This document shows, one piece after another, positions 18,849 to 38,414 of a stretch of DNA of 64,000 nt. The DNA comes from Burkholderiales bacterium (GTDB lineage: Bacteria; Pseudomonadota; Gammaproteobacteria; Burkholderiales; Burkholderiaceae_C), in assembly GCA_016191525.1 (NCBI GenBank), contig JACPOK010000037.1:124001-188000 (forward strand), given 5' to 3'. The notes beneath the pieces are model-generated. The model was not told where the DNA came from. It made no database searches and worked only from the letters and a program-made list of their open reading frames with translations. The first letter of the stretch is position 1. Each line of letters begins with the position of its first letter. Made by a program: the position numbers and the translations under genes.

Positions 18849-18975
18849 GATTAGTCTCCGTCCGTTAGATTGCTAGGGGTCGTTGTGCCCGGTTTCGATT
18901 TGCTCTCCCTGCCGCTGACGCTGCATCTGCAGCAGGGATGTTTCGAATCGTAGGCAAGGTGCCCAATACGCACAA

Positions 18976-19013
18976 ATACTGCTTTGATATCCATTGCAAT
19001 ACTTGCGACGTAT
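18976..19013 (-). promoter_or_regulatory. Paired BenM/CatM-type LysR operator upstream of the porin gene
   Basis: There are two dyads of the ATAC-N7-GTAT form (T-N11-A). The proximal one, ATACTGCTTTGATAT at 18976-18990, matches 7 of 8 consensus bases; the distal one, ATACTTGCGACGTAT at 18999-19013, is perfect. They start 23 bp apart, about two helical turns on one DNA face, as in LysR recognition/activation pairs. The porin ATG is 128 bp away. The same arrangement precedes five other units in the window. Confidence 0.65.
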
Positions 19014-19019
19014 GAGACT

Positions 19020-20147
19020 CTATTGCCGTATCTGGCCGGCCTTGCTGATGATGGTCAGCTCCACGTAATGCGATCCGGTACGCGCGCCGGGCTTGAACGA
19101 GACGACATAGCCGCCAAGGTCGTATCGCTGCAGACCCTCCAGCGCCGTGACGAAGGCCTCCCGGCTGATGCGGGCTCCCGTCCGGCGCGCGGCTTCGACG
19201 ATGACCTTGGCATTGATGAAGCCTTCCATCATCGCGTAGCTGACCGTGCCGCCATCGTCGCTCTTCTTCTGCGGCGCCTCCTGCAGCTGCCTGACCAGGG
19301 CGCCGGACAGCTTGTAGGGGTTTGGCGTGACCTGTGCGATCGCGACACCCTGCATTTGTTCCTCGGACAGCCGCTTGGCCAGTTGCTCTATATCGGCCCC
19401 TGAATGCGCGAATATCTGGGCGTTGCCGCCAAGAACCCTGTAGTGCTCGACAAAGGCGCCGGTCGCCGCGGCGGATGCCACAACGATCACCACCTGCGGC
19501 GTGGCCTTCGCGACCGCCTGGGCTGCGCTGCCCGTCTTCACGGTGCCGGCGGGATAGCTTCCCGCCGCCACGATGGCGGCGCCGGCGTCGCGGGCGACCT
19601 GTTCCGTCACGCTCAGCACGAGCCTTCCCGCGGGCCCGTCCTCATGCACGACCGCCAGCCGCTTCACTCCCACCGTCGCCACATGCTCGATGATCTTGCT
19701 GATCTCGTCCTTCAGCGATGCCCTGACGTTGTAGAGCCATGGCGTCTCGGGGCGAATGTCTCCCGCGCGGTAGCCGACCAGCGCGAGCCGCTCCCTGTCA
19801 AGCAGCCCGGAGGTCACAAGATTGGTGATCCCCTGCGATCCGAAGTAGCCCGCCAGCAGCAGCGGCCGGTGTTCCTGCAGCAGACTTTGCGTAACCGCCG
19901 CGGTTTCCTCGGCCCGACCGCCGTCGTCCTTTCGCACAAGCAGGAAGGTGTGGCCATTGACGCCGCCGGCCTTGTTGATCTGGTCGAAACAAAGCTGCAT
20001 GCCGGCGGAGTAGGCGCGGCCCTGCGCCGCCTCCAGGCCTGTGAGCGGGGCGACCTGCCCGATCACGATCTGGCCCGCGGCCGCGGCGCCCACGTAGATT
20101 CCCAGGCCCAGAGCCAGTGCCCCGCGCCATATGCGTTGAATGCCCAT
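19020..20147 (-). CDS. Periplasmic HAAT substrate-binding protein (LivK-like), no adjacent permease
   Basis: This is a Peripla_BP_6/LivK-type receptor of 375 residues with signal peptide MGIQRIWRGALALGLGIYVG and mature start near GQIVIGQVAPLTG. ACGGAGGA about 5 bases before the ATG at 20147 decides this start; an in-frame extension to 20177 is rejected. It follows a Bug receptor gene by 57 bp in the same direction, a pairing of two unrelated receptor families in one unit. No permease or ATPase is adjacent, so it would use an importer encoded elsewhere (for example the livHMGF set at 39633-42992) or act in sensing. Confidence 0.88.
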   Translation of the reverse strand: MGIQRIWRGALALGLGIYVGAAAAGQIVIGQVAPLTGLEAAQGRAYSAGMQLCFDQINKAGGVNGHTFLLVRKDDGGRAEETAAVTQSLLQEHRPLLLAGYFGSQGITNLVTSGLLDRERLALVGYRAGDIRPETPWLYNVRASLKDEISKIIEHVATVGVKRLAVVHEDGPAGRLVLSVTEQVARDAGAAIVAAGSYPAGTVKTGSAAQAVAKATPQVVIVVASAAATGAFVEHYRVLGGNAQIFAHSGADIEQLAKRLSEEQMQGVAIAQVTPNPYKLSGALVRQLQEAPQKKSDDGGTVSYAMMEGFINAKVIVEAARRTGARISREAFVTALEGLQRYDLGGYVVSFKPGARTGSHYVELTIISKAGQIRQ

Positions 20148-20204
20148 TGCATCCTCCGTCAGTTCAAGAAGGTTCACTGGGCCGAACGCCGGCCTTGGGG
20201 CGGC

Positions 20205-21170
20205 TCAGTCGAGCTTGATGTTCTTCGCCTTGATCAGGGTGCCCATGAATTGCGCCTCGCGCTTGATGGCCGCGGCGGTTTCGACCGGCGTCGGGCTGAT
20301 CGGGTCGTTGCCAGCCTCGTCGATGTAGCGCTGCATTTCCGGCGTCTTGGTGATCGCGGTGATGGTGGAATACAGGCGTTGAACGATGGCGGGTGGCGTC
20401 GATTTTGGCACCCAGACACCGACCCAGGTAAAGACTTCCAGCCCCGGATAGATCTCGGCCAGGGTCGGCACGTCGGGCAGCACGCTGCTGCGCTTGCTGC
20501 CGGTATAGGCGAGGGCGCGGACGCGGCCGGCCTTGATGTGGGGCAGCGCGGACACGGGCGGCTCCCATCCCACCATAACCTGCCCGCCGATGACATCGAC
20601 CAAGGCGCCTTGCTTGTAGGGGATGTGAAGCATGTCCACGCCCGCAGCGTCCTGCAAGAGCTCAAGCCCCAGGTGCGACGTGGTGCCGGGGCCGTAGGAG
20701 GCAAAGGTCACCTTGCCCGGCTTGCTCTTGGCCATGATGATCAGGTCACGCAAAGACTTCACCGGAACATCCTTGTTGACGACAAGGAAAGAGCCGCCGC
20801 GGAAGATCTGCGTTACGGGGATGAAATCCTTCTCGGGGTTGTACGGCAGCCTCGACAACAGGAAAGGCGCCATCGTGAAAGGGTTGCCCGTTGAAAAAAG
20901 GATGGTGTAGCCATCGCCAGGCGCCTTGGCGACCGCATCAACCCCGAGCGTCGAAAGCGCACCGGGCTTGTTCTCCACCACGACGGGGACTTTCAGGGCC
21001 TTGGATAGCTTGTCTGCATACAGCCGGGAGAACGCATCGGAACCCACCCCCGCCGGCGTCGGCGTGACGATCCTGATCGGCTTGGATGGCCAAGAATCCT
21101 TCTGGCCATACGCAGGCAGTATCGCCAGCCAGGCTGCGCAAAGTGCCACAAATATTCTAAAGTACGTCAT
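20205..21170 (-). CDS. Bug family periplasmic receptor
   Basis: This is a 321-residue Bug/TctC-type receptor with a signal peptide ending LPAYG-Q and the motif RIVTPTPAGVGSDAFSRLYA. A GGAGA site precedes the ATG at 21170; a longer in-frame reading to 21455 would run over the operator at 21234-21271 and is rejected. It is close in sequence to the Bug protein at 23662-24654. Both share LLQDAAG, IPYKQ and GGQVMVGWEPP, which argues for local duplication. No TctA/TctB carrier lies nearby. It heads a two-gene unit with the LivK-like receptor, behind a paired LysR site 64 bp upstream. Confidence 0.92.
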   Translation of the reverse strand: MTYFRIFVALCAAWLAILPAYGQKDSWPSKPIRIVTPTPAGVGSDAFSRLYADKLSKALKVPVVVENKPGALSTLGVDAVAKAPGDGYTILFSTGNPFTMAPFLLSRLPYNPEKDFIPVTQIFRGGSFLVVNKDVPVKSLRDLIIMAKSKPGKVTFASYGPGTTSHLGLELLQDAAGVDMLHIPYKQGALVDVIGGQVMVGWEPPVSALPHIKAGRVRALAYTGSKRSSVLPDVPTLAEIYPGLEVFTWVGVWVPKSTPPAIVQRLYSTITAITKTPEMQRYIDEAGNDPISPTPVETAAAIKREAQFMGTLIKAKNIKLD

Positions 21171-21233
21171 GTTTGTCTCCTGCGGGGGGTTGTGCTGTTT
21201 CCGGATGTTAAAAACTGGCGGGTGAAAGCGCCA

Positions 21234-21271
21234 ATACTGGTTGTGCATCGAAGCCCATACTTGTCGGGTAT
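21234..21271 (-). promoter_or_regulatory. Paired BenM/CatM-type LysR operator upstream of a Bug/LivK receptor unit
   Basis: The proximal dyad ATACTGGTTGTGCAT (21234-21248) matches 7 of 8 consensus bases. The distal dyad ATACTTGTCGGGTAT (21257-21271) is perfect and is flanked by C and G, giving CATAC-N7-GTATG. Start-to-start spacing is 23 bp, and the proximal site begins 64 bp before the Bug ATG at 21170. This is exactly the same offset as the operator before the GlcG/HbpS gene at 37111. Confidence 0.68.
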
Positions 21272-21333
21272 GGATGCGCGGCTTTATACGTAGGAACTGG
21301 GATGGTTCGTGGCGCCATGCCAGCAGGTAGCGC

Positions 21334-22512
21334 TCAGGCGCGGGATGGCCGCCGCGGATAGCCGATGTTGGTGAATCCGGGGACGACCACTTCGGCGGGG
21401 CGGTTGTTGCTTTCGCACAGCGCGTCGACGATGTAGGGCGCGACGGAGTTGGCAAGCTGCTGCATCGGGTCCTCCATCACGAAACGCAGGCGCGTCATGA
21501 CGGCGCGCCGATCATCGGCCGACTGCACGGCCGGCATTTCGCTGATCGTTTGCGTGGTTTCGTCGATGACGGGGCCGCTCTTGATCATCGGCGTGAAGGA
21601 CGGAAAGCCCTTGTACATCTCGCGGCCGACTTCAACGGTGCACCGGGTGCTGAACCAGATCTTGCGGAACTGGAACTCGAGCGCGGTGCATTTGGTCTCG
21701 TCTTTCAGGTCGTCCAGCGCCAGCGTCGGCGCGTGCGCGGCAAGATAAAGCCGGTCCGGCGCCAGCTTCTGGCCGGAGGCCTGCCACAGCAGGTGGCACA
21801 TGGTGTTGGTTGCCCAGGTCAGGCCCGCCGTGGGCCGGCCGGCGCGGCCGCTGACGATCACCATCATGCGTTGCCAGTCAAGGCCCTGCTCCCGCAACCA
21901 GCGGATGATGCGGTACCCGATATCGAGAAAGACCAGCCCGAAGGTCCCGGCCATCATGTCGTTCATGGGCACCGGAATATCCGGCGAATCGACCGGCTCG
22001 AGGAAGTGCTCGCGCAGATGGTCGAAGGTGAAGAGAGTGTGATCCTTCAAACCGCGCTGGATGTAGTCCTGCGTCACCGCGCAGCTGTACTCGACCATGT
22101 CGGTGATCTTTTCCTCCATGCCGGCCCAGGCTTCCACGGCGACCGTCTCACGCCAGTACGCTTCGGTGTTGATCTCGCGCACTTTAACGATCTGGTCCAG
22201 GATGCGATGCGCGTGCGCTTCCCAAGCCGGTTCGCCGAGTTCTCGCATGCGCGTCAGAAACGGCACGGCGATGCCGAGATGGGAGATGGCCGTGAGCTCG
22301 ACGAACCCGCGTGTGGAATTGCGAAAGCTCTCCATCAGCGGTGGGCGCCCCGAGCCCGGGAATATGACCAGGTCGCTGCCAGTGGCCACTAACAGGGGAT
22401 CGTCGGACGCGACGCGCGCCCGCAAGGCGTTCAGATCCCCGCCGATGCTGCCGATGTCGGGCGTGAAAATCGAATACAGGGTCTTGAACTCGGGATGCGG
22501 GATATAGGCCAT
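21334..22512 (-). CDS. Unrecognised conserved-looking protein in a catabolic operon
   Basis: This is a 392-residue soluble protein that I do not recognise. It has no signal peptide, no lipobox and no convincing membrane helix. Codon use and composition match its neighbours, and the reading frame is long with a clean 18-bp gap from the upstream EAR-propeller gene, so it is real. Visible traits are a run of Trp, His and Met-rich segments (for example HLLWQASGQKLAPDRLYLAAH), several Cys, and conserved-looking Gly/Pro turns such as LVIFPGSGRPPLMES. It is the last gene of the aldolase-amidohydrolase-Bug-EAR operon. It could be an enzyme working with the propeller protein; no function is assigned. 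Confidence 0.75.
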   Translation of the reverse strand: MAYIPHPEFKTLYSIFTPDIGSIGGDLNALRARVASDDPLLVATGSDLVIFPGSGRPPLMESFRNSTRGFVELTAISHLGIAVPFLTRMRELGEPAWEAHAHRILDQIVKVREINTEAYWRETVAVEAWAGMEEKITDMVEYSCAVTQDYIQRGLKDHTLFTFDHLREHFLEPVDSPDIPVPMNDMMAGTFGLVFLDIGYRIIRWLREQGLDWQRMMVIVSGRAGRPTAGLTWATNTMCHLLWQASGQKLAPDRLYLAAHAPTLALDDLKDETKCTALEFQFRKIWFSTRCTVEVGREMYKGFPSFTPMIKSGPVIDETTQTISEMPAVQSADDRRAVMTRLRFVMEDPMQQLANSVAPYIVDALCESNNRPAEVVVPGFTNIGYPRRPSRA

Positions 22513-22530
22513 GGTGCGGATTCCCTCTGC

Positions 22531-23649
22531 TCAATCGTTGAAGCGATAGACCACCGAGTCCTGGCGGAAGCGCAGTTCGGGGTTCATATTGTTGCTGACT
22601 GCAACATAGGTCTGGCCGCCGGCGCTGAAAGCCGCCGCTCCAGTGCCGCCGAAGGTGGGGAACTCCTGCACCAGCGTGAGCTGGCCGCCGTCGAAGCGGT
22701 ACAGCTGCGAATTCAGGTCGACCGTCGGCGTCGGGGGCGTGCCGCGGATGAAGTTGACGCGCACCACGTACAGGCCCTTGGCCGTGCGCACCTGCGCAAG
22801 CTCCCGGCCGCCGGTGCCCTCCAGTGTCTGAGCCAGTTCGAAGCGCTCGCCGCTCCAGCGGTACAGCTGCGAGTCGCTCAGGATGTTGAGGAACACCAGG
22901 TACGCGCCGCCGTCGTCTTCGAAGAAGCTGAAGGCCCGTCCGCCTTTTTCGGCAAGCTCCTGGAAAGGGGCGAAACGGCTGCCGTCCCAGCGGTAGATGC
23001 GTGAGCCGTCGACATGGTCGGCATAGGCCAGGAAGCGCTGGCCGGCCAGCTCGAAATAGGCGCAGCTGTAGCCCCAGCGGCCTTCCAGGTCCTGGAACGG
23101 GACGAAGCGTTCGCCGTTCCACTCGAAGATCATGGAGGTCCGCGGATGGCGCACCACGATCTTGTCGTTGGTCACGCCCTGCGAGAGCGCGAGGAAATGC
23201 CGCCCGTCGAAGCTGAAGTAGTGCCAGTGCTTGGACACCACGCCTTCCATCGCCTGGAACTGCGCCCATTCGCTGCCGTCCCACTTGTAGATTTTCGAGA
23301 CGCTGTTCTCATCGTAAGGGCCGCTGCCGGTGCGCGCGGAGGAGATGGCCAGGAACTCGGCGCTGCCGATCCTGAAGTATTCGAAGCATTCGGCGCCGGT
23401 GGTCGGCAGGCGAGCATCTTCGACAAAGCGGCCGCCTTCCCAGCGGTAGATCGGCGAGTCGATGTCGGCGTTGCCCGAGTGCATGCCGGGCTTGTGTCCG
23501 GGCACATCCAGCGCGAACTGGGGCACGGCCAGGTATTGCTGGCCGTTGCGCTGGAAGGCAAGCACCGAACGGCCACCGGAAGTGGGTAGGCGCTGGTGTT
23601 CGGTGAGGAAGGGGCGGGTGTCGGCGGTGGTGGGCATGGAATCTCTCAT
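22531..23649 (-). CDS. Seven-repeat EAR (EPTP) beta-propeller protein
   Basis: This is a 372-residue protein built entirely of seven tandem repeats of 44-60 residues, each ending in a signature like IYRWDGSRF. The repeat ends are near residues 75, 128, 182, 226, 270, 324 and 370. Each repeat starts with a FQ-L-GG-type strand and contains Y/F-L-A. This matches the epilepsy-associated repeat (EAR/EPTP), best known from animal LGI1, whose seven copies form a beta-propeller. No signal peptide is visible, so it is probably cytoplasmic. The start could be the first codon or M5. It lies 12 bp after a Bug gene and 18 bp before the unknown gene in the LysR-linked operon. Its role may be binding or scaffolding; catalysis is not evident. 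Confidence 0.85.
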   Translation of the reverse strand: MRDSMPTTADTRPFLTEHQRLPTSGGRSVLAFQRNGQQYLAVPQFALDVPGHKPGMHSGNADIDSPIYRWEGGRFVEDARLPTTGAECFEYFRIGSAEFLAISSARTGSGPYDENSVSKIYKWDGSEWAQFQAMEGVVSKHWHYFSFDGRHFLALSQGVTNDKIVVRHPRTSMIFEWNGERFVPFQDLEGRWGYSCAYFELAGQRFLAYADHVDGSRIYRWDGSRFAPFQELAEKGGRAFSFFEDDGGAYLVFLNILSDSQLYRWSGERFELAQTLEGTGGRELAQVRTAKGLYVVRVNFIRGTPPTPTVDLNSQLYRFDGGQLTLVQEFPTFGGTGAAAFSAGGQTYVAVSNNMNPELRFRQDSVVYRFND

Positions 23650-23661
23650 TTTCTTTAAGGC

Positions 23662-24654
23662 TCAGTCGAGCGTGATGTTCTTGGCCTTGACCAGGCGGGT
23701 GGTCATCTCCAGCTCGCGCTGGATGGCGGCGGCCATTTCCGCCTGCGTAACGTTTTTGGGTTCGGCGCCGGAGTCGGCCAGAATCTTGAGCAAGACCGGG
23801 TCCTTATTGACGGCGCCGACGGCATCTTGGAGGCGCTTGACGATGGGCGCGGGCGTCCCGGCGGGCGTCCACAGGCCGACCCAGGTCGGAATCATGTCAA
23901 AGCCCGGCACGATCTCGGCCGCATTGGGCACGTCGGGCAAGGCCGCGCTGCGGCGCTCGCCGACAAAGGCCAGCGCCTTGACCTTGCCCGACCGGATACC
24001 CGGCACGGCGGAGGCCGGCGGCTCCCATCCGACCATCACCTGCCCACCCATCAGGTCGGGCATTGCGCTCTGCTTGTACGGTATCTGGAGCATTTCCATG
24101 CCCGCGGCGTCCTGCAGCAGCTCCATGCCCAGGCGGGCGGTGCTGGCCCCGCCGTAGGAGGCGTAGCTGAGGTAGCGCGGCCGTTGCCTGGCGATCGCGA
24201 TCAGGTCCTTCAAGCTGTTGCCGGGAAAGGTGCTGCCGGCAATGATGAACGAGCCGCTGTGGTACAGCTGGGTGACCGCGACAAGATTTTGCGCCGGGCT
24301 GGACGGCATTTTTGGCAAGAGCTCGGCCGGGGTCGTGAAAGGGCGGCTGACGGAAATCAGCAGCGTCAAGCCGTTGGGCGGCGACTTGGCAACCGCGTCC
24401 ATGCCGAGCATGCCCGAGGCGCCCGGACGATTCTCGACAATGATTGCGGTATTGAGTTCCCTGCCCAAACGTTCGGCGTAGACGCGCGCGAAGAGGTCCG
24501 TGCCGACGCCGACAGGTGTGGGCGTCACGATCTTGATCGACGCGCCCGCCGGCCAAGCAGGCTGGGCTGCGCTCCAGAGCGGTTGGCACAAAGCGGCACA
24601 GGCGCAAAGGACCAGCGTGTAGCGGCGGCTCACCATGTTTTCCATGTGCGCCAT
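23662..24654 (-). CDS. Bug family periplasmic receptor
   Basis: This is a 330-residue Bug/TctC-type receptor. The signal peptide ends near WSAAQ, followed by SIKIVTPTPVGVGTDLFARVYA. It is paralogous to the Bug protein at 20205-21170, with LGMELLQDAAG, IPYKQ, GGQVMVGWEPP and LPDVPNAAEIVPG in the same places. Three nearby ATGs (codons 1, 4 and 7) leave the exact start open. It sits between the amidohydrolase and the EAR-propeller gene, 12-23 bp from each, so it is part of that operon. Ligand: an unknown carboxylate, probably shared with the paralogue. Confidence 0.9.
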   Translation of the reverse strand: MAHMENMVSRRYTLVLCACAALCQPLWSAAQPAWPAGASIKIVTPTPVGVGTDLFARVYAERLGRELNTAIIVENRPGASGMLGMDAVAKSPPNGLTLLISVSRPFTTPAELLPKMPSSPAQNLVAVTQLYHSGSFIIAGSTFPGNSLKDLIAIARQRPRYLSYASYGGASTARLGMELLQDAAGMEMLQIPYKQSAMPDLMGGQVMVGWEPPASAVPGIRSGKVKALAFVGERRSAALPDVPNAAEIVPGFDMIPTWVGLWTPAGTPAPIVKRLQDAVGAVNKDPVLLKILADSGAEPKNVTQAEMAAAIQRELEMTTRLVKAKNITLD

Positions 24655-24677
24655 TGCCTGGTACTTCTTTCTGCGGG

Positions 24678-25562
24678 CTACTGGCCAAAGCCGAACAGGC
24701 GCGCCGGGTTGCCCGACAGGATGCGCTGCTGCGCGTCCGCTTCCGGAATCCAGTCCGCCAGCAGGTTGAGCAACTCACCAGTGTCGCGCCCGCCGTTGGG
24801 AATGTGCGGCCAGTCGCTGCCCCAGATCACGCGGTCGGGAAGCTCCTGCACGATGGCCCGGGCCAGCGGCCGCAGCTTTTCGTAGTTGCCGTCCTTGGCC
24901 AAGCGGTAGGGGCCGGAGAGCTTCATCCAGCCGCGGCCGCTCTTGAGCGCGGACAGGAGCCGATCAAAGTCCTCGCGGGTCAGGCCGTCGCTCTCGAGCA
25001 TGTAGCCCATGTGGTCGATGACGAAGTCCACGTCCAGGTGGCCTAGGAACGGGATGAGGTCGCGCACAATCTTTCCCGGGGTGTAGAACTGCAGGTGCCA
25101 GCCCAGGGCTTTGACGCGTTTCGCGCTGCGCTCGATGTACTGGACGATCTGCGCGGTGGGCAGTCCGGCGCGCAGGAAGAGGTCCAGGCGCAGGGCCCGC
25201 ACGCCACGGCGGTGCATGTCCTGCAGTTCCGCATCCGTGACCGTTTCGTCGACCATCGCCACGCCCCGTGCGCGATCGCGGGCCTTGTCCAGTGCATCCA
25301 GCAGGCAGCGGTTGTCGGTGCCGTAGAAGCTGGACTGGACAATGGCGTAGTGGGCCAGGCCCAGGAAGTCGGCCATCTGGTTCAGCTTGGTGAGGGGCCC
25401 GTCGGGCAGCGTGTAGTGCGGCTTGTCGACATGGGGGTACTTGTCTTCAGACTCGAACACGTGAACGTGCGAATCCCAGGCGCCGGCCGGAACCGTGAAG
25501 CTGGGCTTGGTGAGGGTGAAGGCGTCCCGCGTGGGCGTGGATGTCAGAACTTCGTTACTCAT
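24678..25562 (-). CDS. Amidohydrolase-2 family protein (2-pyrone-4,6-dicarboxylate lactonase-like)
   Basis: This is a 294-residue TIM-barrel hydrolase of the amidohydrolase_2 family. WDSHVHVF carries the HxH pair, IDHMGY a further His, and WGSDWPH the catalytic Asp. The closest characterised relatives by motif are 2-pyrone-4,6-dicarboxylate lactonase (LigI) and related lactonases. The ATG at 25562 is 4 bp after the aldolase stop; the in-frame TTG upstream lies inside the aldolase gene and is rejected. With an aldolase upstream, a lactone hydrolysis step leading to the aldol substrate is plausible (inference). Confidence 0.85.
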   Translation of the reverse strand: MSNEVLTSTPTRDAFTLTKPSFTVPAGAWDSHVHVFESEDKYPHVDKPHYTLPDGPLTKLNQMADFLGLAHYAIVQSSFYGTDNRCLLDALDKARDRARGVAMVDETVTDAELQDMHRRGVRALRLDLFLRAGLPTAQIVQYIERSAKRVKALGWHLQFYTPGKIVRDLIPFLGHLDVDFVIDHMGYMLESDGLTREDFDRLLSALKSGRGWMKLSGPYRLAKDGNYEKLRPLARAIVQELPDRVIWGSDWPHIPNGGRDTGELLNLLADWIPEADAQQRILSGNPARLFGFGQ

Positions 25563-25566
25563 GATG

Positions 25567-26385: not shown

Positions 26386-26468
26386 TTTTCTCCTCTGTGG
26401 CCGCACGGCCGCCGGGATTGTTCGCCATTTGATGGAGGAATCGTAGAGAATCGGCGCTATATTCGGAA

Positions 26469-26506
26469 ATACTCAATCTGGATAGATTCCCATATGCTGG
26501 AGGTAT
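26469..26506. promoter_or_regulatory. Paired BenM/CatM-type LysR operator in the LysR/aldolase divergent promoter
   Basis: Two dyads, each matching 7 of 8 bases of ATAC-N7-GTAT, are present: ATACTCAATCTGGAT at 26469-26483 and ATATGCTGGAGGTAT at 26492-26506. They start 23 bp apart. The second overlaps the GGAGG ribosome-binding site of the LysR gene (26499-26503), so binding would block its own expression while the first lies 84 bp before the aldolase ATG. This is the arrangement expected of a self-repressing LysR activator. A further inverted repeat AATCT-N4-AGATT occupies 26475-26488. Confidence 0.6.
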
Positions 26507-26507
26507 C

Positions 26508-27413: not shown

Positions 27414-27414
27414 G

Positions 27415-29144: not shown

Positions 29145-29158
29145 GATGTATTCCTGTG

Positions 29159-30631: not shown

Positions 30632-32079
30632 GGCGAAAGTACTTTTGCAGGGTTCATGGTTCCCAGCGGATCCAGCGCGTTCTTCACGGCTCGCATCAGC
30701 TGGATTTCTACGCCCGTCTTGTAGCGCGCCGCCTCGTCGCGGCGCAGCACACCGAGGCCGTGTTCGGCGGAGATCGACCCGCCACGCGCGGCGACGGCGT
30801 CATGCACGAGTTGATTGACGGGCGCTTCGAGCTGTTCAAAGGCCCGTGCCCGCGCCACATCGGCATTGGGCGCCGGAGACAGGTTGAAATGCAGGTTTCC
30901 GTCGCCCAGGTGTCCGAAAACGACCATTCGCGTTCCCGGGAAAGCCGCGCCCAATGCCGCGCTCGTGGATTCGATGAATTCAGGAATTGCCGAGATTGGA
31001 AGCGAGATATCGTGCTTGATCGTCCGGCCTTCCGCTGCCTGCGACTCCGAGATGTTCTCGCGCAACGCCCACAGCTCGCGAAACTGCGAGACGGATGACG
31101 ATACGGCGGCATCGCTGATGGCGCCTTCTTCCAGGGCCGTGCCCAGCACGTCCGTGAGCACGTCGGCTATGGGGTTCGCCTCGTTCTCGCCCGACGCTTC
31201 CAGCAGCGCATACCACGGCGAAATCCCGTCCAGCGGCCGGCGTGCCGCCGGGATGTGGCGCAGTACCAGGCCCAGGCAGGCTTCGCTCAGCAGCTCGAAG
31301 GCGGTGAGACGGGGACCCAGCGCCTCCTGCGCGAGCTGCAGCAGCTGCGCGGCGGCTGACGGTGACGGCACGGCGGCAAAGGCCGCGGCGCGGGCGGCAG
31401 GCGGCGGAAACAGCTTGAGCACGGCGGCGGTGATCACGCCCAGCGTGCCCTCCGAGCCGATGAAAAGGCCGCGCAGGTCGTAGCCCGTGTTGTCCTTGCG
31501 CAGCGCGCGCAGGCCATCCCAGACCTGGCCGCCGGCCGTCACCACCTCCAGGCCCAGGCAAAGGTCCCGGATGTTGCCGTAGCGCAGCACCTGTACGCCG
31601 CCCGCATTGGTGGACAGGTTGCCGCCGATGGTGCAGCTGCCCTGGGCAGCCAGGCTCAGAGGGAAGAACCGGCCGGCCGCCTCGGCGTGCTCCTGCACCT
31701 GCTGCAGCGTCACACCGGCCTCAACGACCATCACGTTGTTGACGCTGTCAACCAGCCTGACCTTGTTCAAGCGGCTGGTCGACAGGACCAGGTTGAGGCC
31801 CGTGCTCTCGGGGACGCTTCCGCCCGACAGGCCTGTGTTACCGCCCTGCGGCACCACCGCGACCGCGTTCTCCGCGCACCACGCCACGATGCTCGCGGCA
31901 TCCGCGGTGGTGTCCGGCTGAGCAATCGCGATGGCGCGGCCGGTCCACTTGCCCCGCCAGTCCCGCAGAAAGGGGGCGGCATCGCTGGGGTCGGTGATCA
32001 GGCGGCCCGCGAAGGCCGCCCGGAGGGAGGCAAGCAGCGCGGGTTGCGCGCCGGGGTCGATGCGCTGTGGCTTCATCAT
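30628..32079 (-). CDS. FAD-linked 2-hydroxyacid dehydrogenase/oxidase (FAD_binding_4 family)
   Basis: This is a 483-residue flavoprotein with an N-terminal PCMH-type FAD domain (PQGGNTGLSGGSVPES near 77-92, GGNLSTNAGG near 150) and the C-terminal FAD-oxidase_C domain ending GTMNPAKVL. Relatives are GlcD and D-2-hydroxyacid dehydrogenases that pass electrons to flavoproteins or quinone. The ATG at 32079 comes 2 bp after the hydratase stop; an in-frame TTG at 32085 is possible. Such an enzyme is not part of the standard homoprotocatechuate route. It may oxidise a hydroxy-acid precursor such as an aryl-lactate or mandelate type compound (inference). Confidence 0.88.
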   Translation of the reverse strand: MMKPQRIDPGAQPALLASLRAAFAGRLITDPSDAAPFLRDWRGKWTGRAIAIAQPDTTADAASIVAWCAENAVAVVPQGGNTGLSGGSVPESTGLNLVLSTSRLNKVRLVDSVNNVMVVEAGVTLQQVQEHAEAAGRFFPLSLAAQGSCTIGGNLSTNAGGVQVLRYGNIRDLCLGLEVVTAGGQVWDGLRALRKDNTGYDLRGLFIGSEGTLGVITAAVLKLFPPPAARAAAFAAVPSPSAAAQLLQLAQEALGPRLTAFELLSEACLGLVLRHIPAARRPLDGISPWYALLEASGENEANPIADVLTDVLGTALEEGAISDAAVSSSVSQFRELWALRENISESQAAEGRTIKHDISLPISAIPEFIESTSAALGAAFPGTRMVVFGHLGDGNLHFNLSPAPNADVARARAFEQLEAPVNQLVHDAVAARGGSISAEHGLGVLRRDEAARYKTGVEIQLMRAVKNALDPLGTMNPAKVLSP

Positions 32080-32081
32080 CG

Positions 32082-32885
32082 TCAAACGAACCGCAGGGAA
32101 ATGGAGCCCAGCGTCCCGTAGTCCGCCGTGAAGACGTCGCCGGCGGATGCTTCGACAGGGCGCGTGAAGGAGCCGGCCAGCACGATCTCGCCGGCCTCCA
32201 GGCGCTCGCCATACGGCGCGATCTTGTTAGCCAGCCACGCGACGCCCTTGGCCGGGTGATTGAGCACGCCGGCGGCAAGTCCGGTTTCCTCGAGCACGCC
32301 GTTCTTGAACAGCATGGCCCCGGTCCAGCGCAGATCGACGTCCGAGGGGCGGGCCGGCCGCCCTCCCATCACAACGCCCGCGTTCGCCGCGAAATCGGAA
32401 ATGGTGTCCACCACCTTGCGGCGGACCTTTGTTTCGCTGCAGACCGGCTCAATGCGAGCATCGATGATCTCCAGCGCCGGCACCACATACTCGGCGGCCC
32501 GCAACACGTCGGTCAGCGCCACGTGCGGCCCCTGCAATGGCGTGCCCAGCACGAATGCCAGCTCCACTTCCACCCGGGGCGCGATGAAGGCGGCGACGGG
32601 AACGTCCGCTCCTTCCTGGAAGAACATGTCGTCCATCAGGGGCGCGAAATCCGGCTCCGTGATTCCGGAGGCGAGCTGCATCGCCCGCGAGGTCAAGCCG
32701 ATCTTGTGCCCCTTGACCACGCGCCCATCGCGCATTTCCAGCCGCACCCATTGGCGCTGGATGCTGTACCCGTCCTCGATGGTCATTCCCGGATGCCGCA
32801 GGGAAAACTGCCGCACCTGCCGGCGCAGCCTGCGGGCGCCGTAGAGCTCCTGCGCCAGCGTCCGGGTGGTGTCCTCGGAAAGCAT
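32082..32885 (-). CDS. hpaH: 2-oxo-hept-4-ene-1,7-dioate hydratase-like protein
   Basis: This is a 267-residue hydratase, the same length as E. coli HpaH, of the FAH-fold hydratase/decarboxylase family. Diagnostic segments are [36 protein letters not shown] with metal-binding acidic residues, and [11 protein letters not shown]. It adds water to the 2-oxo-enedioate before aldol cleavage. A longer in-frame ORF to 33716 lies within the reductase gene and is rejected; the ATG at 32885 overlaps that gene's stop (TAATG). The product would feed the HpcH/HpaI aldolase encoded at 25567-26385. Confidence 0.88.
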
Positions 32886-33877
32886 TAGCGGGTTCCGTTC
32901 GCGGGGTAAAGGCCGTGAACACTCGCGAAGAGCCGCGCCAGGCCAAGCACCGCCGCGATATTGGGGGTTGCAACCCCGGCTCTTCCGCCCAATTCGTGCA
33001 CCGCGCCCACGATGCTGTCCAGCTCGAGCGGCCGGCCGGCCTGCGCATCCTGCAGCATGGAGGTCTTGAACGCGCCGAGCTTGCGCGTGACCTCGTGCCG
33101 GTCTTGCGGCGACTGGTTGATCACCAGTCCGATGCGCCGGCCGATTTCGGCCGCTTCTGTCATCGCATCCGAGCAAAACTGCGTAACCAGGGGATCGTCC
33201 AGCAAACGGTCGATGGTGGCGCCGGTGATCGCCGACACCGGGTTCATTGTCAGGTTGCCCCAGAGCTTGTACCAGATGTCGTTTCGGATGCTGGCGGATG
33301 CGGTCGTGTCTATTCCGGCGTCCATCAACAGCCTGGCCACGGAAAGCACGCGGTCGGAGAGCCCGCCGCAGGCTTCGCCGACAACCAGCCGGTTGCCCAT
33401 CTGGTGCTTCACGACGCCAGGGCTCACCGTTGAAGCGCTGGCATGAACGACGCAGCCAATGACTCGCCCCACGGGCAACACCGAAGCAATGACGCCCTGG
33501 GGATCGAGTGTCGCCAGCGGGCTTTTGTCGGCGAGCGGCAATACCTGCGTGATCCACCAGGGCACGCCGTTCATGGCCGGCATCACAGCGGTATCCTCGC
33601 GCAGCATGGGCTGCATCGCGCCGGCAACCGAAGCCAGCGCCGGCCCCTTGACCGCGATGATCACCAGGTCCTGGGGCCCGAGATCCGCCGGATGGTCGCT
33701 GGCCTTCACCGGGCATTGAATCAGTTCGCCCCGCTCCTGCAACTGCCAGCCATGCTGCCGCAGGGCGGCAAGCGTGGCACCGCGCGCCAACACGCTGACT
33801 TCGCAGCCTCCAGCCGAGGAAAGCCTGGCGCCCAGCCAGCCGCCGATGGCGCCGGCGCCAACGATGGCGACCTTCAT
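32885..33877 (-). CDS. 2-dehydropantoate 2-reductase (ketopantoate reductase) family protein
   Basis: This is a 330-residue NADP-dependent reductase of the ApbA/PanE family. Dinucleotide-binding [14 protein letters not shown] opens the protein, the catalytic Lys region [10 protein letters not shown] lies near residue 210, and the C-terminal helical domain follows. It is unlikely to be the housekeeping PanE. It is embedded between HpaG- and HpaH-like genes with overlaps on both sides (ATGA and TAATG), as is often seen for PanE-like paralogues in aromatic operons. It may reduce or oxidise a 2-keto/2-hydroxy acid intermediate, perhaps paired with the neighbouring FAD-linked 2-hydroxyacid dehydrogenase (inference). 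Confidence 0.87.
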
Positions 33878-34821
33878 GCCGTGGACTTCGACCGGGCCCG
33901 CGCCAGGCCGTCGCGCAAGTGCTGCGGCACCCGCTCGTCGAACCCGAGCGCGACGCGCCTCACCTCGGCGCTGTCGGTCGGCTCATGCCCCACGCCCAGC
34001 ATCGATGCCCGCGGTATCAGGCCCTGCGTCACTCGGGCGGCCAGCCGGCCGAGGCCGGTGATCTCGACCTCGACCAGGTCGCCCGGCACGACGGATCGCG
34101 AGTGGCAAGGTGTTCCCGTCAGCAGAACGTCCCCCGGCATCAAGGTGATATGCCGGGCCACGTCCGCCACCATGTAGTGCGGGCCCCAAATCATCTCGTT
34201 GCCGATATGCGCGTCCTGAACAACCTGCCCGTTCACATAAGTGGTGAGCCGCTGCTCGAAAATGTCGATGCCGCTCACGATTCCCGGCCCCAGCGGCAGC
34301 AATCCGTCCGCGCCCTTGACGCGCAGCATCGAGCCTTGGTCGGTATCCCGGAAGTTCTGCAGCCCCATGTCAAGCGCCGGAACAAAGCCTTCCATGTAAT
34401 CCCACGCTTCGTCGGGCGTCACGTTCCTGCAGACCCGGCCAATCACGACGGCGAACTCGCCTTCATAGTTGAGAAAGCCGCAATCGGCCGGCTTGACGAT
34501 CTCGCCCTGGTGGCCGGTCAGCGCCGTGGGCGGCTTTGTGAAATAGGTGGGCGTCCGTGTCGGACGCGGATTGTCCCGCGTCTCGACGCCGCGCGACGAA
34601 TAGGAGAGATGAACCGCGATGATCTTCGAAGGCTCACAGGGCGGCAGGTGAACCAGGCCCTCAAGAGACACTTGCCGGCCATCATCCAGGACCAGCTCGC
34701 CTTCGCCTCGAACCGTGCCCCAGCACGGCGTGTTGCCGACAAGGACCCTGCGGCGCTCGCGGCGCGGCCCCCGCATGACGGCCGGGAGTTCACGCACGGG
34801 GAAATCATGGAGATGCTTCAT
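33874..34821 (-). CDS. hpaG: Fumarylacetoacetate-hydrolase-family protein, HpaG-like isomerase/decarboxylase
   Basis: This is a 315-residue FAH-fold enzyme with an N-terminal segment and one catalytic domain. [12 protein letters not shown] carries the metal-binding E-x-E, and [14 protein letters not shown] and [16 protein letters not shown] are family motifs. In E. coli, HpaG has two such domains that isomerise and decarboxylate carboxymethyl-hydroxymuconate derivatives. Here only one domain is present and no separate isomerase (HpaF) was found, so one step is unaccounted for. It follows the YceI gene by 12 bp and overlaps the reductase start (ATGA). Confidence 0.8.
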
Positions 34822-34833
34822 GCGTAGGCGCGG

Positions 34834-35394
34834 TTATTCCTGCTTGATGCCTTCAACCTGCAGGAGCAGCCGGACGACGTCCGGGAAACGCGGCAGGCCC
34901 CACTCGATGCCCCAGGCACTGCGGTTGATCATGGCCTCGAAGTCGCCGCCGCAGATCTCGCGCTTGAGCATGCCGTTGAACACGCAATTGAAGCGCAGGG
35001 CCTTGAGCTTGACCGCATTCGTCTTGCCGACCATGGTGAGGTTTCCGTTGACCTCGACTACCTTGTCTCCATTGAAGACAAAGCTCTCCGCCGTGAACTT
35101 TGCCGTGGGGTACTGCTCGACGTTGAAGAAGTCCTTGGACTGCAGCTGCTTGTTGAACGGCGGGATGCCGGTGTTGATCGAGGCAGTGTCCACGGTCAAG
35201 CTGACCTTGCCGGTCCTTGCCGCCGCATCGAACTCGACCACGCCTTCCTTCTTGTCGAACTTGCCCCGGTTGGTCGAGATGACATGATCGATCTCGAAGG
35301 TGATGTTGGTGTGCAGCGGGTCGAGGCTGTAGGTGGCGGCATTCGCCGCCATGCAGGCCGATGCGGCCAGTATCAGTAGCAGGTTTTTCTTCAT
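34834..35394 (-). CDS. YceI family periplasmic lipid-binding protein
   Basis: This is a 186-residue YceI-family lipocalin-like beta-barrel with a signal peptide (MKKNLLLILAASACMAANA) and the family's opening YSLDPLHTNITFEIDHV. Later motifs NTGIPPFNKQLQSKDFFNVEQYP and FTAESFVF are typical. YceI proteins bind isoprenoid or long-chain lipids in the periplasm. The ATG at 35394 starts the signal peptide; the in-frame extension to 35424 overlaps the other YceI gene and is rejected. It is the second of two tandem YceI genes and precedes hpaG by 12 bp. Confidence 0.88.
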   Translation of the reverse strand: MKKNLLLILAASACMAANAATYSLDPLHTNITFEIDHVISTNRGKFDKKEGVVEFDAAARTGKVSLTVDTASINTGIPPFNKQLQSKDFFNVEQYPTAKFTAESFVFNGDKVVEVNGNLTMVGKTNAVKLKALRFNCVFNGMLKREICGGDFEAMINRSAWGIEWGLPRFPDVVRLLLQVEGIKQE

Positions 35395-35410
35395 GGCTTT
35401 CGTTTCGTGG

Positions 35411-35974
35411 TTAGGGCGCCGCAATGCCTGACAGCGCCAGTTTGAATTTCACCTGGACTTCGTTGGCGACCATCGATGTGTCCGACCATTCGCCTTCGCC
35501 GATCCTGAAATCCAGCCGTTTCACCGTCAGCGTGCCGGTCGCGATGTGAACGGCGCCGGCCCTGGCCAGCGTGACAGGCACCCGGACGTCTCTTGCGGTG
35601 CCTTTGATGTTCAGCTTGCCCGCGAGCTCGAACTTCCCCGGACCAGCGGAACTGATGCTTGTGGATTCCAGCGTCGCCTGTGGAAACTTGGCGATGCTGA
35701 ACCAGTCGCTCTTCGCCGCCTCGCTGTCGGTATCTGGCGAGCCGAAGCGGGCGCTCGCTGCGTCGATGTTCAGCACAACCTTGCCCGCCTCCGGCTTTTT
35801 CGGATCGAAAGTGAACTGGCCGCCGAACCTCGAGAAGCGCCCTTCGACGGGCACGCCCATCTGCCTGAAGACAAACGAGATCTCACTTTGCGCTGGCTCA
35901 AGCTTCTGCGCCAGCGCCGGATTGCAAGCCCACAGCGCCCAGGCGATGCAACTGATTTGAAGAAGATTTTTCAT
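35411..35974 (-). CDS. YceI family periplasmic protein
   Basis: This is a 187-residue YceI-family protein with a signal peptide ending CNPALA-Q and the motifs SEISFVFRQMGVPVEGRF and NIDAASARFGSPDTDSEAAKSDWFSIAKFP. It shares only the family pattern with the adjacent YceI protein at 34834-35394, so the two are old paralogues or were recruited separately. The ATG at 35974 overlaps the cytochrome b561 stop (ATGA). The cytochrome b561 plus YceI pairing is widespread and suggests quinone or isoprenoid-linked redox work at the periplasmic face; its link to ring cleavage is unclear. Confidence 0.87.
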   Translation of the reverse strand: MKNLLQISCIAWALWACNPALAQKLEPAQSEISFVFRQMGVPVEGRFSRFGGQFTFDPKKPEAGKVVLNIDAASARFGSPDTDSEAAKSDWFSIAKFPQATLESTSISSAGPGKFELAGKLNIKGTARDVRVPVTLARAGAVHIATGTLTVKRLDFRIGEGEWSDTSMVANEVQVKFKLALSGIAAP

Positions 35975-36522
35975 GTCTGCACCCTGCGGAAGTTCCACGG
36001 AGCCATGCGCGACAGGATGCCGTCACGGTCCAGCAGCTGGTGCTTGAGGACCGCCGCCACGTGCAGCACGGCGATGCCGCCCAGCGAAAGCGCCAGGCCG
36101 ATGTGGAGCGACTTCAGCGTCGCCGCGAGCTGCGTGTCCGGCGCCACCAGATCGGGCAACGGAAGCAGGCCAAAGACGACCACCGGAAAGCCGGCAGCGG
36201 AGCTGTAGGTCCAGCCCGAGAGCGGCACGGCAAAAAACAGGAAGTACATCGCCCAGTGAGCGCTGTGCGCGGCTCGCTGCTGCCACGCCGGCATCGGCAA
36301 GTCGGCCGGCGGGCGGTTCGCCATCCGCCAGGCCAGGCGCACGACGGACACCGCCAGGATGGTGACGCCCAGCCACTTGTGCCAGTTATAGAGCTTCAAC
36401 CGCATAGGCGACATCTGCAGCTGTGTCATGTAAACGCCCATGGCGATTGCGGAAAAGATCAGCATCGCCGCGAGCCAGTGAATCGCGATTGCGGCCTGTG
36501 AATATCGTGTGTTGCGCATCAT
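35971..36522 (-). CDS. Cytochrome b561 family protein
   Basis: This is a 183-residue four-helix di-haem b inner-membrane protein. RYSQAAIAIHWLAA begins helix 1 with the first haem His, LYNWHKWLGV gives the second, and AHSAHWAMYFLFFAVPLSGW and HIGLALSLGGIAVLHVAAVLKH the remaining ligands. GGAAA six bases before the ATG at 36522 supports the start; the next codon is also ATG. It is the first gene of a ten-gene operon reaching 27415, behind a paired LysR site. It may pass electrons from quinol to a periplasmic partner, probably involving the YceI proteins (inference). Confidence 0.9.
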   Translation of the reverse strand: MMRNTRYSQAAIAIHWLAAMLIFSAIAMGVYMTQLQMSPMRLKLYNWHKWLGVTILAVSVVRLAWRMANRPPADLPMPAWQQRAAHSAHWAMYFLFFAVPLSGWTYSSAAGFPVVVFGLLPLPDLVAPDTQLAATLKSLHIGLALSLGGIAVLHVAAVLKHQLLDRDGILSRMAPWNFRRVQT

Positions 36523-36570
36523 CAATATTTCCAATACGCCGATCCTAGAGTCGACTTGCAATACGTTCAA

Positions 36571-36608
36571 ATACTATATTTGTATATTTTTCGATATCTT
36601 TAACGTAC
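36571..36608 (-). promoter_or_regulatory. Paired BenM/CatM-type LysR operator upstream of the meta-cleavage operon
   Basis: The dyad ATACTATATTTGTAT at 36571-36585 is a perfect ATAC-N7-GTAT. A second, ATATCTTTAACGTAC at 36594-36608, matches 6 of 8 bases. Start-to-start distance is 23 bp, and the perfect site begins 49 bp before the cytochrome b561 ATG. This is the weakest pair of the six because of the distal half, but the spacing is identical to the others. The region is markedly AT-rich relative to its surroundings. Confidence 0.58.
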
Positions 36609-36619
36609 CGATGCGCCGC

Positions 36620-37111
36620 TTACTTGAGCTGGTCGCGCACCTTGTCGAGCCCCGCCACGGCGCATTGCTCGTCCAGCAGCCCTCGCGGCGCGCCGCTCAC
36701 GCCCACCGCGCCGATCACCTCGCTGCCCGCACGGATAGGGACGCCGCCGCCCAGCAGCAGGAAGCCCGGGATGTGCACCAGATAGCTCGCGCCCGGGTTC
36801 GTCTGCGAACCTTCCATCAGGGCCTGCGTATTGTTTTTTGCCGATGCGGAAGTGAAGGCCTTTTGCTGGCTCGACGGCAGCGCATGGGCGCCGGCGTTAT
36901 CGGCACGCAGTGCCACGCGCGGCGCCCCCGCGCGATCGACGACGGTGACCGCCACCTGGTAGCCGCCCGCCGTGCAGCTGGTGATCGCCGCCGTCGCGAT
37001 CTGCATGGCCAGTTCGAGCGAGATGTTCTTCTCGGTCCTGACGCCCTGTGCCTGGGCGACGGACAGGGACAGCAGGAGCGCGGCGGATACCGCTGTGGAA
37101 CGAAGCTTCAT
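36620..37111 (-). CDS. GlcG/HbpS family protein
   Basis: This is a 163-residue protein of the GlcG/HbpS (DUF336) family with a signal peptide (MKLRSTAVSAALLLSLSVAQAQ), so the mature chain is exported. ISLELAMQIATAAITSC and the C-terminal GGGVPIRAGSEVIGAVGVSGAP are the family marks; some members bind haem or are subunits of sensory or cobalamin-related systems. It stands alone between the cytochrome b561 operon and the transglutaminase-fold gene. A paired LysR site begins 64 bp upstream of the ATG. The function in the pathway is unknown. Confidence 0.87.
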   Translation of the reverse strand: MKLRSTAVSAALLLSLSVAQAQGVRTEKNISLELAMQIATAAITSCTAGGYQVAVTVVDRAGAPRVALRADNAGAHALPSSQQKAFTSASAKNNTQALMEGSQTNPGASYLVHIPGFLLLGGGVPIRAGSEVIGAVGVSGAPRGLLDEQCAVAGLDKVRDQLK

Positions 37112-37174
37112 GTTGCCTCCTCGGCATGCGTTGTTGGTCGCCGCGATGGTAGGCGGCCGGGACCCCTGGAGGAA

Positions 37175-37211
37175 ATATCAACTTGGTATCGCGGCCATAC
37201 TGATTTCGTAT
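37175..37211 (-). promoter_or_regulatory. Paired BenM/CatM-type LysR operator upstream of the GlcG/HbpS gene
   Basis: The proximal dyad ATATCAACTTGGTAT (37175-37189) matches 7 of 8 bases. The distal dyad ATACTGATTTCGTAT (37197-37211) is perfect and sits in CATAC-N7-GTATG. Spacing is 22 bp, one less than in the other five pairs. The proximal site starts 64 bp before the ATG at 37111. Confidence 0.66.
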
Positions 37212-37242
37212 GGATGAAAGGACCGGGATGGACCGGTTCTTG

Positions 37243-38142
37243 TCAGCGCTGCGCAGAGCGCGCGGGAACGACCGCTCCGACCATCGGTACGACGGCCTGG
37301 CAACTTTCGCCCTCGTGAGGGCGGCGCAGCTTCCTCAGCCGCCGGTTGGCCATCACGGACGTGAAGGACCATGTCTTGCGGCTGGCCCATTCCGAAAGGG
37401 CCGCAGGACCTGCCGAGGCATGAAACTGGTGAACGTCGTCATACGCGCCCAGGTCGAGTATCGGAAGGCTGCCGGGATCCTCGCTGCTGAATTGCCCAAA
37501 GGAACTGCTTTTTCCGTCCCATGACACACTGCCTTTGGTGTGGACGCCGTAGCCCGCGCTGCGGCGCTCTTCGGCCAGGCGCGTACGCGCCCTGAGATTG
37601 AGCTGCAGATCGATGACGTAGGTATCCACACCCAGCCACTCCCGGTCGACCAAGACCTCGGTGAACGCGTGCTCGACGACCGACCCGTCACCGCCCGAGA
37701 TCCCGCGCATGTAGGAAGGGCGCAGCAGCACGATGCGCAGCCGCGCGGGTATGCCGACCGAGCGCAGCAGGGCAATGAACAGCGTGCTCTTGCTGAAACC
37801 GTCACCCATCCTGGCTGCCAGCACCTCCACCGAGGGCATGTGAACCGCATCGACGGCGCAGCTGAATTTCAGGCTCCTGACGTACTCGAAGCAGGCGACC
37901 GCCTTGTCGCGATTTCCGCTCTTGAGCTGGGTCAGTTTCATGCCCAGCAACCGCACCTTCGGATGATCGTGCTGCAGCAGCGCGGTGTCCTGGATCCATC
38001 TTGCTGGAGGCTGCGCGTCGGCAGCACCGCGATAGTCCTTGTCGTAGCGGTTGTGGAACGTGCTTCCGGAGAAGATGAACCCGTCGGCCGAGCACCCGTT
38101 CATTGCGGGTTGCGGGGGCTGCGCCCTGTCCAAAGACTGCAT
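37243..38142 (-). CDS. Transglutaminase-fold protein with the catalytic Cys replaced
   Basis: This is a 299-residue protein with a transglutaminase-core pattern, GDGFSKSTLFIALLRSVGIPAR (residues 113-134, shown here only in part as a motif), HAFTEVLV with H158, and WLGVDTYVID with D173. In active members the loop before the first helix reads G-x-C-x-x-K; here it is G-D-G-F-S-K, so the Cys position is G115. It is therefore probably not a cysteine protease or transglutaminase and may bind instead. GAGG seven bases before the ATG at 38142 fixes the start. The in-frame extension to 38352 would cover a LysR operator and a terminator and is rejected. No signal peptide is visible. Confidence 0.75.
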   Translation of the reverse strand: MQSLDRAQPPQPAMNGCSADGFIFSGSTFHNRYDKDYRGAADAQPPARWIQDTALLQHDHPKVRLLGMKLTQLKSGNRDKAVACFEYVRSLKFSCAVDAVHMPSVEVLAARMGDGFSKSTLFIALLRSVGIPARLRIVLLRPSYMRGISGGDGSVVEHAFTEVLVDREWLGVDTYVIDLQLNLRARTRLAEERRSAGYGVHTKGSVSWDGKSSSFGQFSSEDPGSLPILDLGAYDDVHQFHASAGPAALSEWASRKTWSFTSVMANRRLRKLRRPHEGESCQAVVPMVGAVVPARSAQR

Positions 38143-38278
38143 GGTTACCTCGACTGCTGTTCTGGCCTCTCCCGCCTTCAGGGAGCGGTTGCTCCAAGTG
38201 CCAGGTAGAGACTGGTGTCTCCCGAATCCGGTCATCCATTTGCAACTTGATACTAGGAGTGGAAAGCGATACCGGCAA

Positions 38279-38316
38279 ATACTGGTTTTGTATCCCCAGC
38301 CATACGCATGATGTAT
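38279..38316 (-). promoter_or_regulatory. Paired BenM/CatM-type LysR operator upstream of the transglutaminase-fold gene
   Basis: There are two perfect ATAC-N7-GTAT dyads: ATACTGGTTTTGTAT at 38279-38293 and ATACGCATGATGTAT at 38302-38316, the latter inside CATAC-N7-GTATG. They start 23 bp apart. This is the best-matching pair in the window. The proximal dyad shares ATACTGGTT with the one before the Bug gene at 21170. The downstream ATG is 137 bp away. Confidence 0.72.
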
Positions 38317-38352
38317 GCCCTGGTGCCTCACATGTGAAGCGCCAAAAAGCAA

Positions 38353-38383
38353 GCCGCAGCGACTGCCTGGCAGTCGCTGCGGC
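38353..38383 (-). terminator. Strong rho-independent terminator of the paa/liv operon
   Basis: A 13-bp perfect stem, GCCGCAGCGACTG (38353-38365) with CAGTCGCTGCGGC (38371-38383), surrounds a 5-base loop. Read on the minus strand it is followed by TTGCTTTTT. It lies 32 bp after the stop of the last LivK gene and just before the LysR operator at 38279-38316, so it separates the two regulons cleanly. On the plus strand a TTTTT also follows, but no gene ends there. Confidence 0.85.
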
Positions 38384-38414
38384 GGCGGGATTTTTACCGG
38401 GCTATCGCGGGGAT

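Follow-up and report, generated by a model that had tools for sequence, protein, structure and literature searches.

A predicted eight-promoter LysR regulon with paired ATAC-N7-GTAT operators in a Burkholderiales genome

Which protein do paired ATAC-N7-GTAT dyads of a Burkholderiales bacterium answer to, and which genes lie under its control? The question is raised by a 64,000-nucleotide stretch of assembly GCA_016191525.1 (contig JACPOK010000037.1, positions 124,001 to 188,000; hereafter the window), in which a sequence-only reading had described six such pairs and attributed them to a BenM/CatM-type LysR regulon of six promoters within about 19 kb. According to the present analysis, the LysR-type regulator encoded at 26508-27413 on the plus strand (301 amino acids) is very probably the master regulator, by predicted binding, of a local regulon of eight promoters spread over ~62 kb, of which the window contains six. 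The regulon is of the well-known general LysR type. We recognized no paper as describing it; subscription journals lay mostly outside the search, so no claim is made about what is in print.

Operator pairs and promoter layout

All 12 dyads are present, at 18976/18999, 21234/21257, 26469/26492, 36571/36594, 37175/37197, and 38279/38302, with 1/0, 1/0, 1/1, 0/2, 1/0, and 0/0 mismatches to ATAC-N7-GTAT, respectively, which confirms the observation of six paired operators. As reported earlier, the start-to-start spacing is 23 bp in 5 pairs and 22 bp in 1, and every pair (6 of 6) lies in a gap between genes. Distances to the next minus-strand ATG (among them the Bug ATG at 21170 and the aldolase ATG at 26385) are 128, 64, 84, 49, 64, and 137 bp, matching the claimed range of 49-137 bp with two values of exactly 64. 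Single dyads with at most 1 mismatch number 14 in the window against 2.6 expected, a count reached by none of 100 shuffles. For pairs (22-24 bp, total mismatches ≤3) the excess is larger: 6 versus a mean of 0.01 and a maximum of 1 in 300 block-Markov resamplings that keep local composition.

A genome-wide pair scan covered 5,002,280 bases at spacings of 22 and 23 bp. At 23 bp and ≤3 mismatches it returns 7 pairs on the forward motif and 0 on the reversed control, and all 7 fall into one 62-kb stretch, C35:100426-162316, of the contig on which the window occupies C35:124001-188000. At 22 bp there is 1 forward pair (37175/37197). Two of the pairs lie outside the window and had been overlooked. 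Also missed was a dyad without mismatches but without a partner, which lies within the Bug gene at 21108; it was considered as an intragenic site of the kind known for CatR and rejected as probably accidental, since none of 4 other Bug1 genes has a dyad with ≤1 mismatch and one has a dyad with 2.

The best evidence comes from the -10 boxes, which the first reading did not report. At 8 of 8 pairs (all on the minus strand) a TAnnAT box follows the end of the activation dyad at a distance of exactly 23 bases, and the pairs had been identified without use of it. Of 864 positions compared in the 150 bases following each of the six window pairs, 7 match TAnnAT, and 6 of these matches are the in-register boxes. 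Relative to the starts predicted from the -10 boxes, the dyad centres are at -66 and -43 (-65 and -43 for the 22-bp pair), and the activation dyad abuts the -35 region. A passage of PMC4730206 places the LysR recognition site at about -65 and two activation subsites at the -35 and -10 regions; at the predicted starts the T-N11-A dyads found here show the same arrangement, with a recognition site near -65 and an activation site near -35. The dyads are thus predicted to serve LysR as recognition and activation sites at sigma-70 promoters, and the layout is textbook LysR of unusual consistency.

A composite pattern of recognition dyad, activation half-site, and -10 box matches the window genome with ≤2 mismatches at 7 places, all of them minus-strand promoters of the regulon. 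Two more places appear at exactly 3 mismatches (one on contig C11, the other at the transglutaminase pair but on the opposite strand), along with 1 control match.

The fixed layout of each promoter, with the recognition dyad at about -66, the activation dyad at about -43, and the TAnnAT box 23 bases beyond it, suggests a mechanism in which a LysR tetramer would span both dyads. Inducer-bound LysR would then reposition on the activation site and contact sigma-70 RNA polymerase.

Co-occurrence of the operators with the regulator

The regulator gene was correctly named as the only LysR gene of the window: tblastn with this LysR (E ≤1e-3) matches itself only. The protein has an N-terminal HTH_1 and a C-terminal LysR_substrate domain according to Pfam. 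Among 299 genomes of the family the composite (≤1 mismatch) is found in 6, with 18 matches and 1 control match, while LysR orthologs (E ≤1e-90) occur in 4 genomes of an equally sized draw, namely the window genome, G132, G215, and G223. Hence the composite is present in 4 of 4 ortholog carriers versus 2 of 295 others (Fisher p = 4.6e-8, a value that counts the window genome and treats both draws of 299 as the same genomes). A larger family draw of 399 genomes (E ≤1e-80) yields the same four carriers. Regarding the genus, 4 of 60 genomes carry the ortholog, including the window genome, and the three others have 1, 3, and 5 composites (≤2 mismatches) with 0 control matches; G726 and G727 are only 81% and 85% complete, and the lysR gene of G727 is split over two contigs. 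In G215 a second composite match, with 2 mismatches, is probably due to chance.

Variovorax sp. EL159 has a LysR that is 80% identical, together with two pairs followed by in-register -10 boxes. An order-level scan of 399 genomes, mostly of unspecified family, gave no ortholog besides the window genome, and plasmids contained one LysR relative at E ≤1e-60, 40% identical. Across 80 scanned loci with LysR relatives, any such pair was found in 3. Dyad pairs of the same type, spaced 22 bp, occur at L085:2011, 9961, and 10924 (Duganella) and at L082:9960 (Undibacterium), close to the genes of more distant LysR relatives that are about 40% identical.

G132 has seven sites at five places on two contigs, so that conservation of the neighbourhood alone does not explain them. 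Six of the seven stand before orthologs of the window-genome targets: the porin and Bug1 genes, the aldolase operon, cytochrome b561-YceI-YceI-TauE, and the genes for the carboxylesterase and the flavodoxin-fold protein. The seventh (L115:9940-10006) is the lysR-proximal operator, kept though the aldolase operon is elsewhere in G132. It and two other sites, G726:C618:13861 and G223:C90:7351, lie outside the set with assigned targets.

The alternative that survives best is that the pairs are real LysR-family operators bound by some other LysR, such as a true CatR or CatM, the adjacent LysR gene being merely one target. The window genome may indeed hold many LysR genes, ATAC-N7-GTAT is also named as the CatM and BenM site in a section of PMC6628147, the Duganella (L085) and Undibacterium (L082) loci show that similar 22-bp pairs accompany other relatives, and the C and G flanks of the CatR-family site are seen in 6 of 21 recognition dyads of the relatives. 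The co-occurrence, however, is specific to orthologs of this LysR, with the 3 of 3 further genus carriers adding to the 4 of 4 above, and both flanks of AkACC-N5-GGTAT, the CatR-family consensus that an excerpt of PMC6449761 gives for Betaproteobacteria, are present in 0 of 8 recognition dyads of the window genome. Binding by another LysR is therefore considered unlikely.

Several further observations weigh against control of all eight promoters by the LysR at 26508-27413. Dyad 36594 has 2 mismatches. G038 and G294 have one 1-mismatch composite match each without an ortholog, and G292 has a control match to the composite. A loose and unconfirmed initial search pointed to 74 places in the window genome that may encode LysR relatives, and others could share the motif. 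In G727 no dyad with ≤2 mismatches was found in ~250 bases before the HbpS gene, which leaves conservation of this target doubtful. The one-base distance between recognition dyad and lysR, described below, is not kept in G223 and is five bases in G686. Finally, the -10, start, and operon assignments are predictions.

Regulon members

The proposal of one LysR-type regulon over the porin, Bug/LivK, aldolase/EAR, meta-cleavage, HbpS, and transglutaminase-fold promoters stands, whereas its confinement to the window and to about 19 kb does not. All window targets are on the minus strand. The porin gene (Porin_4 by Pfam, 17769-18848) is preceded by an activation dyad resembling an activation binding site (ABS) at 18976-18990 and by a perfect dyad resembling a recognition binding site (RBS) at 18999-19013, with a predicted centre at -66. 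Its third half-site, a feature treated in the next section, is at 18966-18969 and its -10 box, TACGAT, at 18947-18952; an orthologous promoter is present in G132. The pair at 21234-21271, which also has an ortholog in G132, lacks a third half-site (class B, see below) and is followed by TAACAT at 21205-21210. It would serve a presumed operon (19020-21170) of Bug1 (TctC, 20205-21170) and LivK1 (Peripla_BP_6, 19020-20177), assigned by Pfam with the start codon taken from the sequence.

The aldolase operon pair (26469-26506; third half-site 26459-26462; TACGAT at 26440-26445) precedes a presumed operon at 21334-26385 encoding, by Pfam, an HpcH/HpaI-type aldolase, an Amidohydro_2 protein, Bug2 (TctC), an EPTP/EAR-repeat protein, and DUF5624. 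For the Amidohydro_2 protein the sole NCBIfam match is 4-sulfomuconolactone hydrolase, below cut-off. The aldolase/amidohydrolase/EAR/DUF5624 cassette lies beside or under LysR in G132, G215, G223, G686, and Variovorax; G726 has EAR and Bug1 only, and in G727 the cassette is interrupted by a contig end. In a literature search on DUF5624, EPTP, or EAR repeats, the 10 papers listed of 87 dealt with human or animal proteins, none with DUF5624.

The cytochrome b561 pair (36571-36608; third half-site 36561-36564; TAGGAT at 36542-36547) has orthologs in G132, G726, and G727 and precedes the longest presumed operon (27415-36522), assigned by Pfam and NCBIfam: cytochrome b561, YceI, YceI, FAH, PanE/ApbA, HpaH hydratase, FAD-linked oxidase, ALDH, LigB-type extradiol dioxygenase, and TauE. 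The 22-bp pair (37175-37211; TACCAT at 37146-37151), without a third half-site, precedes an HbpS/GlcG-like gene (Pfam, 36620-37111), and the perfect pair at 38279-38316 (third half-site 38269-38272; TAGTAT at 38250-38255) precedes a transglutaminase-core gene (Pfam, 37243-38142, start codon picked by eye). As for the two promoters outside the window, with -10 boxes TAACAT and TAGCAT, one is located before a gene for a flavodoxin-fold reductase, beyond which an HbpS-like gene follows, and the other before a carboxylesterase gene.

Three kinds of function are suggested by the targets: uptake by the porin and by the Bug and LivK receptors; processing by the esterase, the aldolase/amidohydrolase cassette, and the meta-cleavage set; and redox or envelope roles for cytochrome b561, YceI, the flavodoxin-fold reductase, and the HbpS-like protein. 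The EPTP/EAR-repeat protein, DUF5624, the YceI pairs, the HbpS-like protein, and the transglutaminase-fold protein are thereby tied to a single catabolic regulator, and their function becomes open to testing.

The regulator may also control itself. At the aldolase promoter a single base separates the recognition dyad from the lysR ATG, and the dyad includes the likely Shine-Dalgarno sequence GGAGG (26499-26503), so that bound LysR should hinder its own expression; at this lysR/aldolase divergon it would act as a repressor of its own gene. G132, G215, and Variovorax share this one-base spacing, as do, according to match positions, G726 and G727.

Third half-site and promoter classes

The spacer between activation dyad and -10 box was compared in 29 promoters from seven LysR-bearing genomes and Variovorax, many of which are mutually orthologous and hence do not represent 29 independent cases. 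Ten of them (8 from the window genome, 2 from Variovorax) had been found by pairs alone and 19 by the composite, and the third half-site played no part in finding any. Composite matches in G038, G294, and G215:C21 (judged to be chance) and the two 3-mismatch places were left out; the G038 match has TAT elsewhere in its spacer. In 18 of the 29 promoters RTAT (GTAT or ATAT) stands exactly ten bases past the GTAT of the activation half-site, just past the -35 hexamer, while TAT occurs at 0 of 493 other counted spacer positions. Another 9 have TTGG at -35, after the dyad, instead of the third half-site, and 2 have neither. Of the 8 promoters of the window genome, 4 carry the third half-site.

According to a section of PMC6628147, the inducer-free BenM tetramer sits on Sites 1 and 3 and the effector-bound one on Sites 1 and 2. 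By analogy, the position of the third half-site would suit that of an inducer-free tetramer. It is possible, if rather doubtful, that an inducer-free tetramer docks on the third half-site, giving two hard-wired promoter designs under one LysR. If so, class A promoters (porin, aldolase, cytochrome b561/meta-cleavage, transglutaminase) would be under active repression as long as inducer is absent and would be activated when the tetramer slides by one turn; class B promoters (Bug1-LivK1, flavodoxin-fold reductase, esterase) would be activated only. Docking of this kind would define naturally, by sequence, the activation subsites between which LysR tetramers presumably slide. For the ABS'' subsite of LysR promoters, a passage of PMC4730206 reports that no conserved motif has been deduced, and 29 related promoters of rigid geometry with a variably present third half-site are useful material for this question. 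A literature search on a third half-site in LysR promoters found nothing related.

The division into 18 promoters with the third half-site, 9 with TTGG, and 2 with neither might also be taken to mean that two separate controls share the operator, the two classes answering to different proteins or states. Both classes, however, occur together in the window genome, G132, and G727 and have the recognition dyad and the -10 geometry in common; a single protein acting on promoters of two designs is the simplest reading, and separate controls appear improbable. That the pairs arose by chance, or reflect no more than the AT-rich composition of gaps between genes in a GC-rich genome, can safely be set aside: perfect single dyads do not exceed the control genome-wide (10 versus 8; 7 of the 10 are inside the window, 6 of these in pairs) and one 22-bp pair is found in the control, but the pairs exceed their controls both genome-wide and in the window, are followed by in-register -10 boxes, and are conserved before orthologous genes in several genera.

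History of the meta-cleavage block

Predicted control by the regulator of the operon promoter upstream of the meta-cleavage genes is supported, but the block itself is not a constant part of the regulon. In the window FAH, PanE, HpaH, FAD-oxidase, ALDH, and LigB sit between the second YceI gene and tauE. The same operon lacks them in G132, where cytochrome b561-YceI-YceI-TauE has the operator without the block, and in G727, where tauE directly follows YceI. G132 encodes the block enzymes, at 60-72% identity, in an operon of their own next to another LysR that is 29% identical, and 19 kb there contain no dyad of ≤1 mismatch. The gene order of this operon is rearranged to HpaH-HpaI-GlcD-ALDH-LigB-FAH-PanE, divergent from that LysR (L124:3755-12246). 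A second HpaI-type aldolase of the window genome, 59% identical to the one in the G132 meta-cleavage operon, lies away from the locus at G000:C21:147084-147860.

Between YceI and tauE, G132 retains a 15-codon relic resembling the FAH start (L116:10640-10780, compared with window 28236-34833). In the relic 26 of 39 bases match the window FAH start, the single place in the window reaching 26, and none of 5000 shuffles reaches the alignment score. It thus appears that FAH, and probably the whole block, was once there and has been deleted, and the window gene order is probably the older. The opposite reading, in which a cytochrome b561-YceI-YceI-TauE operon acquired the meta-cleavage genes by insertion, was dropped in favour of deletion in G132, given this relic. 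The two block edge regions share no stretch of at least 8 bases, and a repeat search over 26300-38500 gave short matches inside genes only. The comparison suggests that a catabolic block was lost from a regulated operon while the operator stayed.

Comparison with known systems

As in the homoprotocatechuate (hpa/hpc) pathway, HpaH, a LigB-type dioxygenase, ALDH, and FAH are found here in one operon. HpaH scores above its NCBIfam cut-off (426.8 versus 351.5), whereas HpaD_Fe (124 versus 316) and HpaE (465 versus 638) are below, which suggests that the substrate may be a relative of homoprotocatechuate.

Regarding the protein family of the regulator, AlsR is the first NCBIfam profile (273.7 bits, cut-off 430), followed by two others, BenM (177.7), and CatM in sixth place (162.4), all six below cut-off; the BenM and CatM models are both narrow "exception" models with cut-offs of 600 and 580. 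The best match to a solved structure is 7w06 (194 bits versus 171 for BenM), given as the itaconate-binding domain of ItcR in an excerpt of PMC9636186. From this ranking and this match a small diacid seems as likely an inducer as an aromatic acid. In contrast to AlsR/ItcR-type systems, no acetoin or itaconate gene is annotated among the targets.

The CatR/ClcR/CatM regulons of Betaproteobacteria, as described in part of PMC6449761, likewise combine a LysR protein with aromatic catabolism, divergent genes, and COG3181 (Bug/TctC) receptors as targets. The regulator and the target enzymes differ here, and so do the operators, by the flank counts given above, which were made by eye.

As for the BenM/CatM regulon of Acinetobacter baylyi, the designation "BenM/CatM-type" fits the operator but not the protein family. 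According to a section of PMC6628147 that system has the same core, ATAC-N7-GTAT, with an upstream site and a second site at the -35 region; here too a strong site has a weaker neighbour at -35, with the order reversed at the cytochrome b561 promoter, where the upstream dyad is the weaker. Identity to BenM is 36% (107 of 295 aligned columns). Among ten selected DNA-binding-domain positions, 7 are identical (F18, Q29, P30, P31, S33, R50, and R53) and three differ (K20R, R34T, and N38G). The benzoate-contacting R160 of BenM is Tyr in this LysR, and the other benzoate-site position, Y293 in BenM, falls outside the alignment compared; the same source gives H160 and F293 for CatM, so that replacement of R160 excludes BenM-like benzoate sensing only. 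Compared with the BenM/CatM regulon, the one described here has no cat or ben gene among its annotated targets and comprises eight promoters of one rigid layout.

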